Source: Selenomonas sp. AE3005
GTDB taxonomy: Bacteria > Bacillota > Negativicutes > Selenomonadales > Selenomonadaceae
NCBI RefSeq assembly: GCF_000686945.1
Contig: NZ_JMME01000001.1
Coordinates: forward strand, 62,001 to 126,000
Length of the DNA stretch: 64,000 nucleotides
Direction: 5' to 3'
Shown: in pieces, positions 47,594-53,080 of the stretch
How the letters are laid out: each line of letters begins with the position of its first letter
Numbering within the stretch: the first letter of the stretch is position 1
Position numbers and translations under genes: made by a program
Notes under the pieces: model-generated
The model's input: the letters and a program-made list of their open reading frames with translations, nothing else
The model's database searches: none
Told to the model about the DNA's origin: nothing

Positions 47594-47610
47594 TTCAACT
47601 GTTGATATAA

Positions 47611-47970
47611 GTTGTCAAGACAATCGCGGCTGATGCTTTGACATCAGATGAGGAAAGTCCGGGCTCCATAGGGCAGTGTGCTGGATAACGTCCAGCGAGG
47701 GTGACCTTAGGGATAGTGCCATAGAGATTTAGACCGCCAGATTTATCTGGTAAGGGTGGAAAGGTGCGGTAAGAGCGCACCAGCAGTCAGGTGACTGGCT
47801 GGCTTGGGTAAACCCCACACGGAGCAAGACCAAATAGGGAAGGGATGATGCGGCCCGCGGAACCTTCCGGGTTGAGTCGCTTGAGCTGACGGGTAACCGT
47901 TATGCCTAGATAAATGATTGTCGCCGCCTTTGGCGGAACAAAACTCGGCTTATTGATTGCTTATACAACA
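47611..47970 (+). ncRNA. rnpB: RNase P RNA (class A)
   Basis: The conserved 5' core GAGGAAAGTCCGGGCTCC is at about 47650. The central region has the J-type GAACCTTCCGGGTTGAGTC and 3' end has AACAAAACTCGGCTTATTG. Helix P1 is formed by 47611-47625 with 47956-47970. It processes the 5' ends of tRNAs. Confidence 0.95.
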
Positions 47971-48124: not shown

Positions 48125-48297
48125 GTAAAAAAGAACATAGGATTAAGCTGAATCCAGCCCAGGAGCGGGGGAACCAAACTTTTGGGGCGAACTTCACGAT
48201 TGCACAGCGCTTTGTCGACTGTGTGAATAATGCAGCGGGTGGTCTTCTCTACCCGAGCCCGGCAGCTAACCTCGTAAGCGAACAGAGAGAGGAGTTG
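48125..48297 (+). promoter_or_regulatory. c-di-AMP riboswitch (ydaO-yuaA type)
   Basis: Conserved blocks are AGCGGGGGAACCAAAC near 48161, TTGGGGCGAA near 48181, and CCCGAGCCCGGCAGCTAACCTCGTAAGCG near 48254 (given here in position only beyond this). It is followed directly by a ribosome site and an NlpC/P60 hydrolase gene, a classical target of this class. An 86-codon open frame at 48046-48306 is inside the RNA and is not taken as a gene. Confidence 0.85.
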
Positions 48298-49665: not shown

Positions 49666-49699
49666 ACATACTGTAAACGAAAAGACCAATAGAATATGG

Positions 49700-49925
49700 A
49701 TTGGATCAGGTGTCTGAGACTTAATAGGGAAGCCGGTATAAGCCGGCGCGGTCCCGCCACTGTAACAGGGAGTGAGCCTGCATAGTTATGTCACTGGAGA
49801 TTTATCTCTGGGAAGGCGTAGGTGAGCAAAGATCTGGAGCCAGGAGAACTGCCTGATTGACAATCGCCGCTAGGAGCCGTGCTGGTTCCTTGGACCTGCG
49901 AGTGATGGGGATGGAGATTTATCGG
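49700..49925 (+). promoter_or_regulatory. Cobalamin riboswitch upstream of GntP-type permease
   Basis: B12-box elements are present: GATCAGGTGTCTGAGAC near 49703, GCCACTGTAACAGGGAG near 49754 and GCCAGGAGAACTGCCTG near 49840. Two tandem terminators lie between it and the permease gene. Exact ends are approximate. Confidence 0.92.
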
Positions 49926-50201: not shown

Positions 50202-51620
50202 ATGGAAGCACTTTGTATAGGATTAGCACTTTTAGGACTTATGTATTTTGCCTACCGCGGCTGGTCAATTATTCTGATTGCGCCGTTTTTTGCCGGTCTG
50301 GCAGCTCTGGCGAGTATGTTTGATATCTTGCCGGTATACAGTGAGCTCTATATGACCCGCCTGGCTGAATATGTAAAGACATATTATCCAGTATTTTTAT
50401 TTGGTGCGGTGTTCGCAAAATTGATGGAAAAAGGCGGTCTGGCATCGGCCATTGCCGGTAAGATTGTGGACGTTTTAGGGGAAAAGCGGGCCATCTTAGC
50501 GGTGCTCATGGGCTGTGGCGCTTTGACTTACGGCGGCCTGTCGGTGTTTGTCGTGGCCTTTGTCATGTATCCTTTCGGCGCGGTGGTATTTAAGAAAGCA
50601 GATATACCGAAGAGACTGCTGCCGGCGGCTTTGTGGGTAGGTATCTTTTCCTTTGCGATGGTTTCTCTTCCCGGAACTCCGCAAATTCAGAATATTATTC
50701 CGTCCTCATATTTTCAGACAAGCACCTGGGCTGCTCCGGGTATCGGCCTGTTTGCCTCGATTTTATTCCTGCTTATCGGCTGGGGCTGGATTGGCCGCCG
50801 GGCTAAACAGCTGCAGGCACAGGGGGAAGGCTATGGTGAACACGGCAGTGACGGCCGCAAAAAGCGTAACCCAAAAATTAACATTCCATGGTACTGGGCG
50901 ATGGTGCCCCTGCTGATGGTTATTGTCATCAACGTGGTGCTGTCCAATCCCTTCGGCTGGGAGTGGGGCTTTCACTGGAACGAGGACAGCTTAGCAGCTT
51001 TTGGGCCGCTTAAACTCTCCCTGCTGGCCTCGCAGGTAGGTAAGGTGTCTGCTATCTGGTCCATCAGCGTGGCCTTGATTCTCAGCAGTATTGCCGCTGC
51101 TATCATCGGCCGCAAGCGGCTTAAGGTTACGGATGGTTTCCTGCCTACGGTAAACTACGCAGCCCTGTCCTCCGGTTCGGCAGCATTGAATGTTGCCTCG
51201 GGCTATGCTTTCGGTTGCGTTATCACCGCTATGCCGGGCTTTGCTCCGGTGACGGAATGGCTCGTGGGTATTGCGGCCTCCTTTGGACCGCTGCTGTCAG
51301 CCGTTATCACCACTAACATCATGTGTGGTATCACAGGTTCGGCCTCCGGTGGTCTGACCATCGCCTTGTCGGCTCTGGGTGACCAGTGGGCAGCGATGGC
51401 TATTGCCGCCGGGATTCCCTTGGAGGTACTGCACCGTATTGTCGCCGTGGCGTCTGTCGGCATCGACCCCGTACCGCATTGCGGCGCGTTGGTTACGTTG
51501 CTGGCCATCTGCGGTCTGACGCATAACGAATCGTATTTTGACATTGCTGTAATCATGGGGCTGAAATTCCTCGTGCCCTTCCTTTGTATTCTCTTCTATA
51601 TGTTGACAGGAATCTGCTAA
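50202..51620 (+). CDS. GntP-family permease (gluconate/organic-acid symporter type)
   Basis: About 472 residues with ~12 membrane segments. It shows the GntP layout: PVFLFGAVFAKLMEKGGLA, LTYGGLSVFVVAFVMYPF, LPGTPQIQN and the C-terminal ITGSASGGLTIALSALG. Relatives bring in gluconate and similar acids by H+ symport. ATG 50202 and TTG 50193 are both possible; GAGGGGAG is 12 and 3 bases before them respectively, favouring ATG. It is a single-gene unit under a cobalamin riboswitch. The substrate is unknown. Confidence 0.85.
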   Translation: MEALCIGLALLGLMYFAYRGWSIILIAPFFAGLAALASMFDILPVYSELYMTRLAEYVKTYYPVFLFGAVFAKLMEKGGLASAIAGKIVDVLGEKRAILAVLMGCGALTYGGLSVFVVAFVMYPFGAVVFKKADIPKRLLPAALWVGIFSFAMVSLPGTPQIQNIIPSSYFQTSTWAAPGIGLFASILFLLIGWGWIGRRAKQLQAQGEGYGEHGSDGRKKRNPKINIPWYWAMVPLLMVIVINVVLSNPFGWEWGFHWNEDSLAAFGPLKLSLLASQVGKVSAIWSISVALILSSIAAAIIGRKRLKVTDGFLPTVNYAALSSGSAALNVASGYAFGCVITAMPGFAPVTEWLVGIAASFGPLLSAVITTNIMCGITGSASGGLTIALSALGDQWAAMAIAAGIPLEVLHRIVAVASVGIDPVPHCGALVTLLAICGLTHNESYFDIAVIMGLKFLVPFLCILFYMLTGIC

Positions 51621-51634
51621 ACTTAAGATATTAT

Positions 51635-51767
51635 AACGAGGCAAGAAAATGTCCCCCACCTCAGCAGGTGGGGGCACGAATACCAAAACAGGCGGCGAGC
51701 ATATCTCCCGCCTCGTTGAAACGCCAAGAGGAAGTTTTGCCTATGGCAAAACTGGAACAACGGCGTT
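51635..51767 (+). other. Structured RNA-like region between the permease and vanW genes
   Basis: Several stems can be read: AACGAGGC (51635-51642) with GCCTCGTT (51710-51717), hairpin CCCCCACCT/AGGTGGGGG (51653-51674), AACGCC (51720) with GGCGTT (51762), and inner GTTTTGCC/GGCAAAAC (51734-51752). A GGCG...CGCC hairpin (51691-51712) competes with the first stem. It also holds a short frame from ATG 51743 with a ribosome site. It could be a noncoding RNA, a switch or a remnant of a mobile-element end. Confidence 0.55.
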
Positions 51768-51771
51768 ATAA

Positions 51772-51820
51772 AAGCCAGCACGCTCATTTTGAAAGGTGCT
51801 GGCTTAATTTTATTTATTTT
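51772..51820. terminator. Bidirectional terminator between the permease and vanW genes
   Basis: AAGCCAGCAC (51772-51781) pairs perfectly with GTGCTGGCTT (51796-51805). T-rich sequence follows on the plus strand, and the minus strand has TTTTATAA. Confidence 0.8.
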
Positions 51821-51826
51821 TATTTA

Positions 51827-53080
51827 TCAGGCCTGAGGTTTGGGGGGATTATAGCTGTCTGTATGAAGATACTCTTTATCAATGATTTCGCCGTTCTGAC
51901 GCCAGAGGCGGTAAAGGGACGGTTTCAAGGCGGCACCTTCGGTAATCAGGGAAATGGTTTGTCCTTTTAAATCGGCTTTGGTTCCCAGTACAAATACTGT
52001 CAGGCGGGTGCCTGTATTGCCCACGGTCAGATATACAGGATGGGGCAGGGGATTGCGGAAAACAAAATCAATGAGGTCATCGGCAACGGTGGCGTCACGG
52101 CCAGCCGGTACGTAGCTTGACGGAATAAAATGCCCTGTGCGTTCCACGGGCGTAAGACCGGCCAGTAAAATGGCATTATATAGCGTGGAGCTGACCTGAC
52201 ATACACCGCCGCCCACGTCGACGGCCGGTTCGCCGTTGACAATGACACCGGCGTTTTTATAACCGGCCTCACGGGTGCGTTTGCCAACCAGCGTGTTGAA
52301 GGATAGGGAGGCACCGGGCTTTATCAAAGCGCCTTCCAATTTGTCGGCGGCCAGGCCGATGTTATCGCCACGGTCACCGGGATAAAAGCTGGTAGTGTAG
52401 CAGCTGAGCACAGTGTCCATAGCGGCTAAATCTGCGTCTTGGATAAAGGGGGGCTGTTCGGCCGGCTCTAACGGGAGCTTGATAGTCAGATTCATCTGCT
52501 GCAATTCAGGCGTCATGGCCGTGATAAGCGGCTGAATATCCAGTGTCAGCCCTGTGACAGCCGGTGTTTTTTTGATAGTGCCGTCTGCCTGCAGCATTGC
52601 TGTGGCATTGACAGGCGGCGTGTCCAGTGACTGTTTTATCTGCAGCAGCTTGTCGCTTAGCAGCTGTTCGTCAAAGCTCGCGTCCATGGTGACAGACCTG
52701 CCAAACATGGCGTAGTACATCTGCATGATTATGTTCTGGGCAGCAGAGCCGTCACGCCCGATGTTATAGGCCTCGTTTACGGCCTTGTCAATATTGCCCT
52801 GCAGCTTGATATCGGCCGGGTTAATGGTAAAACTGCGGTCCTTATAGCTTAAAACAGCTGCCTTGCGGTTCAGCCGGTTATTGGCCACCCCGGTGAAGAA
52901 CTGCCGGGCCTCCTCGCGGCTCATGCCGGCCAGACTGGTGCCATGGGCCTGTACACCCATAATCACCTTGTTCTGGTTGGTGAGGGAAACGGAAATACTG
53001 CCGACAGCCGCTACGCCAACAACGATGCTGACAGACGCCAGCGCTGCTATTTTACTTAAAGCGGATACAGAAAGATTCAT
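51827..53080 (-). CDS. VanW family cell-envelope protein (YoaR-like)
   Basis: About 417 residues: one N-terminal membrane segment, a peptidoglycan-binding-4-like region (GVQAHGTSLAGMSREEARQFF and its repeat), and a C-terminal VanW domain (SFYPGDRGDNIGLAADKLEG, GVCQVSSTLYNAILLAGL). VanW proteins occur in vancomycin-resistance clusters, but this lone form is a chromosomal envelope protein of unknown biochemical role. ATG 53080 is chosen over GTG 53092, which abuts GAGGAG. Confidence 0.85.
   Translation of the reverse strand: MNLSVSALSKIAALASVSIVVGVAAVGSISVSLTNQNKVIMGVQAHGTSLAGMSREEARQFFTGVANNRLNRKAAVLSYKDRSFTINPADIKLQGNIDKAVNEAYNIGRDGSAAQNIIMQMYYAMFGRSVTMDASFDEQLLSDKLLQIKQSLDTPPVNATAMLQADGTIKKTPAVTGLTLDIQPLITAMTPELQQMNLTIKLPLEPAEQPPFIQDADLAAMDTVLSCYTTSFYPGDRGDNIGLAADKLEGALIKPGASLSFNTLVGKRTREAGYKNAGVIVNGEPAVDVGGGVCQVSSTLYNAILLAGLTPVERTGHFIPSSYVPAGRDATVADDLIDFVFRNPLPHPVYLTVGNTGTRLTVFVLGTKADLKGQTISLITEGAALKPSLYRLWRQNGEIIDKEYLHTDSYNPPKPQA

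Follow-up and report, generated by a model that had tools for sequence, protein, structure and literature searches.

Between the end of a gene that, from its protein sequence, we take to be permease-like (51620) and the end of a presumably VanW-like gene on the opposite strand (51827), the ORF list of the window, i.e., of the whole 64,000-nt stretch analysed here, leaves a gap (51621-51826) filled by a compact and highly structured sequence. What is this sequence? The preliminary description listed in it several stems, an alternative pairing, an ATG and a terminator, and proposed either a novel regulatory RNA or a remnant end of an IS200/IS605-like element. All the listed parts were found in their places, and the folding of 51626-51780 gave -58.9 kcal/mol, whereas 200 dinucleotide shuffles averaged -37.9 (sd 3.5; z -6.06) and never reached this stability. 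No Rfam 15 model reached its gathering score over 51600-51850, where the best sub-threshold match (E 0.045) lay mostly outside the element described below. Elsewhere in the window, Rfam models located RNase P class A (47608-47967), two cobalamin riboswitches (49691-49870 and 1047-1231) and a c-di-AMP riboswitch (48136-48296), the latter before a gene that is presumably NlpC/P60-like.

A dispersed repeat in the gap

BLAST with 51600-51840 against the host genome gave at least 43 matches (the best 40 of 68 candidates being scored) and delimited the repeated part as 51633-51771. This boundary and 38 copies delimited at the same ends define a complete copy of a dispersed element on the plus strand, 139 bp long, running from ATAACG to CGTTATAA. 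At least 43 host matches, together with the lack of an Rfam match at the gathering score, rule out a riboswitch or attenuator confined to a single locus. The proposal of a novel regulatory RNA was not upheld either: the sequence is a dispersed repeat lying beside many different genes, and none of the 19 same-genus relatives displayed showed an element within 260 bp 3′ of its permease orthologue (a weak match, L191, was left out).

At the window locus, the element sits between the stop codon of the permease-like gene and the intrinsic terminator of that gene (51772-51805, plus strand), in which AAGCCAGCAC (51772-51781) pairs with GTGCTGGCTT (51796-51805). The terminator had been described as the end of the module; it is indeed present but, since it lies beyond the repeat boundary, it is host sequence, and we discarded it as a part of the module. 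A terminator-like hairpin was seen by eye 3′ of the same gene in several relatives where the element is absent.

All the stems considered here are on the plus strand. The outer stem of the preliminary description, P1, pairs AACGAGGC (51635-51642) with GCCTCGTT (51710-51717). On the 3′ side of its first arm lie the P2 hairpin, CCCCCACCT-CAGC-AGGTGGGGG (51653-51674, arms 51653-51661 and 51666-51674), which resembles the IS605-type end hairpins of relatives, and the P3 hairpin (51691-51712), where GGCGG.GAG (51691-51699) faces CTCCCGCC (51705-51712). P3 is the alternative pairing that had been thought to compete with the outer stem: it is real and overlaps P1, but only in the inner part of the latter, such that a 6-bp outer stem could coexist with P3. 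The right-hand domain (51720-51767), supported by covariation in 49 sequences, comprises P4 around P5; its 3′ side contains a conserved GAACAA. On reading the sequence, P4 is formed by AACGCC (51720-51725) and GGCGTT (51762-51767), and P5 by GTTTTGCC (51734-51741) and GGCAAAAC (51745-51752). The ATG at the P5 loop (51743-51745) is preceded by AAGAGGAAG (51726-51734), just as reported for a short frame, but the start codon is present in 16 of the 49 sequences and hence is not conserved, which rules out a short gene starting there.

Among the copies in the host genome, represented by 44 BLAST rows in 38 loci, four short rows were dropped and two copies could not be delimited (L138 at a contig end and the diverged L141), so that 38 delimited copies remain. 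Nine of them, counting that of the window, are identical, 22 have the same length with at most three substitutions, and eight make up a subtype of 163-164 bp, in which a 24-nt insert separates the two halves. The neighbours of the host copies are many different, unrelated genes. The insert, GCGAAGCGAAGCTAGTCCTTTAGG or close variants of it, was found at L122, L131-L135, L139, L144, L013, L202, L205 and L308, and it recurs in the host and in genomes G003, G020 and G027. Two host contigs bear the same 25-nt flank beside the element (G000:C6:1-95 and G000:C8:21383-21522), which means that the assembly is broken or duplicated at this repeat.

Conservation of the fold

The preliminary description had suggested a covariance-model search for covarying homologues, whose absence it regarded as a refutation, and such covariation was indeed found. 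For the right-hand domain, 49 sequences were aligned out of 57 found. The eight excluded were six mis-anchored or incomplete ones, the near-identical L126 and the palindromised L139, and L010 was exchanged for the window's own copy. In P4/P5, 95.3% of the cells are paired and 38 cells are changed on both sides vs. 8.1 in shuffles, none of the 500 shuffles reaching this level; no slid register comes near, and RNAalifold unaided gave the same structure. The left-hand stems were assessed on 25 full elements out of the 38, after leaving out the copies with the 24-nt insert, near-duplicates and those with doubtful left ends. P3 showed 93.2% of paired cells, with five of its eight pairs changed on both sides, a result reached by 3 of 500 shuffles. 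For P2, 79.2% of the cells are paired, and its count of double-changed pairs was reached by 25 of 500 shuffles. As to P1, two of its pairs vary, and these fail to form in 12 of the 24 sequences having letters there; the stem is kept in about half of the families. Covariation thus gives strong support to P4/P5 on the right-hand side and support to P3, with the controls for P2 and P3 being weaker than those for P4/P5.

The element thus bears conserved hairpins near both ends, 16-20 nt away from them: a strongly conserved one on the right, and on the left the supported P3 with the weaker and variable P2. The terminal inverted match is limited to 6-8 bp. On the strand shown, G-T cells outnumber A-C cells (29 vs. 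9; a single pair contributes 16 of the 29, and we are dealing with related sequences), and because of this excess the shown strand is favoured as the one that folds, either as RNA or as single-stranded DNA.

Variants of both halves were seen as well. In the short relatives L206, L262, L264, L274 and L275, the left half is, by eye, replaced by quite different hairpins. At L139:1001-1055 and in the centre of L204 (both on the minus strand), the right domain forms a near or complete palindrome that extends past P5, as though one arm were a copy of the other.

Mobility, target and genomic setting

The results show that the element is mobile, and its dispersal, target, boundaries and conserved fold are documented as well. 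A copy in G011 is identical over 140 bp, and the same site in its close relative G010 is empty, with the flanks being 98% and 96% identical. The junction reads as a single TATAA in G010 vs. TATAA-[element]-TATAA in G011. A second locus also differs between genomes: G008 has a single hairpin unit there, and G003 has one more, which begins just after TTATAA. As the intergenic regions of the other relatives have diverged, the exact junction comes from the G010/G011 pair only. At another locus compared among relatives, that of a gene that we take to be lysyl-tRNA-synthetase-like, no element was found 3′ of the gene in the eight relatives with a visible gene end among 17 displayed; in the other nine, the reading runs on past the displayed stretch.

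In the window, the left TATAA (51632-51636, plus strand) represents the target sequence, as judged by the empty-site comparison of G010 and G011. The right TATAA (51767-51771, plus strand) is either the element end or the target; it is visible at the junction of the same comparison, and GTTATAA was a condition for delimiting the 38 copies. Although ATAA on both sides of all 38 copies was likewise a condition of delimitation, the preceding T was not, and T stands ahead of ATAA in 34 of 38 copies. An A or T follows ATAA in 31 of 38, and on the opposite strand the target reads TTTAT in 16 copies and ATTAT in 15, i.e., 31 of 38. The available text of PMC4227781 gives three targets for IS200/IS605-type IStrons, and both TTTAT and ATTAT are among them. 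A fixed short target with no further duplication is therefore what we observe, at one clean empty site. Tandem elements exist in which the TATAA is common to adjacent units, and solo right domains and tandem arrays were also seen.

In 18 of 38 copies, the element overlaps, or lies at most 23 nt from, the stop codon of a gene located upstream and read in the same direction, vs. 1 of 41 control intergenic TATAA sites of the window (Fisher p 2e-6). A strong downstream hairpin accompanies 12 of 38 copies vs. 5 of 41 control sites (p 0.054, not significant); both contrasts are rough, given an ORF limit of 100 aa for the controls and about 67 aa for the copies. A host terminator directly 3′ of the element was seen in several cases, the window copy among them. 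We read the location near stop codons as a matter of target sequence plus tolerance, not of terminator targeting, and we take any effect on the host transcript, such as a longer and more structured 3′ end, to be a by-product. As to orientation, all 12 chromosomal matches counted in G052 and G017, two of them adjacent, point the same way relative to the replichore as judged by sampled GC skew, a bias that genes may share; two plasmid matches of G017 and five matches of G010 were left out of this count.

The DNA query matched 24 of 60 genomes at E 0.001, the host included. When 200 genomes of the class were searched with the right-domain covariance model under stricter filters, by which weak matches were lost, 18 gave matches; 17 of the 18 are from the host's family (host included) and one from another. 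We take this class to be Negativicutes, given that the best hit of the host's GroEL was in a Selenomonas ruminantium MAG (91% identity). The high-copy genomes were the host, G023, G093 and G102 with at least 28 matches each, G194 with 27 and G027 with 21. At E 0.01 the model gave at least 54 matches (the best 150 of 1235 candidates being scored). One plasmid record carries the element, Selenomonas ruminantium TAM6421 pSRC1, while a search of phage records gave no match; in the viral contigs scanned with a right-end pattern, the single match had an upstream sequence without such a hairpin. The right-domain model may be used to mask false regulatory-RNA candidates, and one class of signals that look like "structured intergenic RNA" here finds its explanation as mobile DNA.

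The mobilising enzyme and known systems

What moves the element in genomes without a recognisable Y1 transposase? In the host, the only match to the Y1 transposase (PF01797) is a broken fragment (25.4 bits, with a stop inside). No match was obtained in eight element-bearing relatives (G001, G002, G005, G009, G010, G011, G017, G018), nor in three of the five high-copy relatives (G102, G194, G027), the other two, G023 and G093, having one; except for G010 and the large contigs of G017, the genomes searched are drafts, where missing genes are weak evidence. The IS91-type Y2_Tnp (PF04986) gave 0 of 10 genomes, with the controls silent too.

A match to a known insertion-sequence end, which the preliminary description held would count against its own reading, was not found in strict form: in the 46 Y1 loci, many of which stop at contig ends, no autonomous Y1 (TnpA) element sharing ends with our element was seen. 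Twenty-nine of these loci gave no BLAST match to the window element, and four of the other 17 matched it at E below 0.001. At L309, a degenerate right end adjoins an IS605-type copy whose left end is truncated. The element at L319 is cut off at the start of an IS200-like hairpin, that at L318 is short and lies close to an IS200-like end, and that at L323 is full and stands about 1 kb away from the Y1 fragment. In G093, IS200-like ends occur inside or next to element copies (L319:1230-1300, L318:240-390), and the contigs often end in Y1 fragments. When P2 of four elements was compared with the left end of the relatives' IS605-type element, 0, 0, 0 and 3 of 300 shuffles scored as high, and with the right end, less evenly, 6, 3, 0 and 1 of 300, the significance being overstated in both cases as the shuffles did not preserve hairpins. 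Unlike the TATAA element, this IS605-type element seems to be preceded by TTAAC and to have its other end close to TTCAC, as read without an empty site. A guide tetranucleotide 5′ of the hairpins, following the rule given in the available part of PMC6006769, was not evident by eye on either strand.

On balance, we lean, with slightly better than even confidence, to the view that 51633-51771 represents, in full, a short transposable element that is non-coding and non-autonomous and has two structured ends, and that a HUH-like transposase acting in trans recognises its folded strand. The element inserts at TATAA, or at least at ATAA, so that a TATAA flanks it on either side, and at the window locus it landed between the stop codon of the permease-like gene and its terminator. 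The transposase supplied in trans would recognise the folded single strand, P2/P3 on the left and P4/P5 on the right, and may join the ends to TATAA in the manner of IS200/IS605-type HUH transposases, which work with end hairpins and a short 5′ target. The earlier guess of a remnant IS200/IS605-like end was thus right about the kind, given the hairpins near both ends, the fixed target and the likeness of P2, but the sequence is a complete and recently moved unit.

A quite conceivable alternative, to which we give less credence, is that a non-autonomous element is moved by another, unrecognised enzyme, which may be a site-specific recombinase, a DDE transposase or a HUH enzyme not covered by Pfam Y1. 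ATAA would then serve as a shared crossover or as a fixed target. The recent copy in G011 and the high copy number in G102, G194 and G027, all without a Y1_Tnp match, fit this, and ATAA on both sides would also suit a shared core. Moreover, ORFs that from their sequence we take to be tyrosine-recombinase- or integrase-like lie near elements at loci of G006, G003 and G020 (L011, L012/L298 and L013, respectively), and a tyrosine-recombinase-like ORF is annotated about 1.2 kb from the pSRC1 copy. However, among the 25 largest clusters of neighbouring ORFs (436 ORFs), the mobile-gene neighbours seen amount to the integrase-like cluster and one presumably IS1182-like ORF, neither of them general, the latter being at an orthologous site in four genomes (L016-L019); besides, most double-strand transposases need no conserved paired hairpins. 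In G020 (L013:1668-2851), an element directly follows the integrase-like ORF and a second AACGGCGTTATAA precedes it, which may reflect an integrated element using the repeat end as an attachment site. More tentatively still, and on the improbable side, the repeat could be a family of miniature mobile elements, at home in Selenomonas and related bacteria, that integrates precisely at TATAA in hosts lacking a Y1 transposase; its folded strand would be recognised by enzymes of a class that has so far had no connection with hairpin elements.

The two other readings are much less probable. A true REPIN/REP population moved by RAYT transposases would account for the hairpins at both ends, the tandem arrays and the right domains occurring solo (compare the accessible parts of PMC3116915 and PMC3733652), but we consider it very unlikely: the ends, ATAACG.../...CGTTATAA, lack a GTAG or CGTC tag, the two halves differ and form no inverted REP doublet, several carrier genomes have no Y1_Tnp match, and no Y1 (RAYT) gene with these repeats on both sides was found within the limits set by contig ends. 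Least credible of all is a 3′-end RNA element selected for an RNA function that merely happens to be repeated. The covariation, the better tolerance of G-T on the shown strand and the excess of copies at stop codons (18/38 vs. 1/41) speak for it; on the other side, near-identical recent copies adjoin unrelated genes, the empty site in G010 is precise, Rfam gives no match at the gathering score, and the location is explicable by target sequence plus tolerance.

Irrespective of the enzyme, the repeat is a young, hairpin-rich, non-autonomous mobile family of a known general kind. Our literature and library search, including the available portions of PMC8632094 and PMC11109978, yielded no description of it. 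For tests, the family provides a target that is defined, an empty site, and hosts in whose genomes recent copies are numerous.

How does it compare with known systems? Bacterial MITEs (QMITE2, BOX, RUP, SPRITE), as presented in the accessible sections of PMC10969869, are similarly about 140 bp long, non-coding and structured, and QMITE2 is reported there mainly in 3′ untranslated regions. In contrast to them, our element has a terminal inverted match of only 6-8 bp and a target of ATAA without a variable duplication; the longer terminal inverted repeats and variable target duplication of DDE-type MITEs were not seen, ATAA being present in all delimited copies. The CGTC-tagged palindromic repeats are, judging by the available text of PMC3733652, also hairpin repeats without a dedicated transposase, but they differ in the tag, size and host phyla. 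With REP/REPIN sequences and their RAYTs, the element shares its small size, wealth of hairpins, multiple copies in mostly intergenic positions, tandem arrays and solo halves, and it departs from their definition (PMC3733652 and PMC3116915, as far as accessible) in having no GTAG/CGTC tag, inverted doublet or associated RAYT.

The closest parallel is provided by the IS200/IS605 group (IS608, ISDra2, group A IStrons) and its miniature derivatives, for which the available part of PMC6006769 describes single-strand transposition with end hairpins and a short target. The differences are that no transposase gene sharing the element's ends was found, that several carrier genomes lack a Y1 match, and that the relatives' IS605-type element appears to use TTAAC/TTCAC. 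Common to both are the hairpins near both ends and a short fixed target kept on the flank with no other duplication; the targets of the element on one strand, TTTAT/ATTAT (31/38), are among the IStron targets (PMC4227781, the text available), and its P2 is like the end hairpins of the relatives' IS605-type element, most clearly the left one. We claim no family membership, and suggest that the element works most like a non-autonomous element of the IS200/IS605 type.
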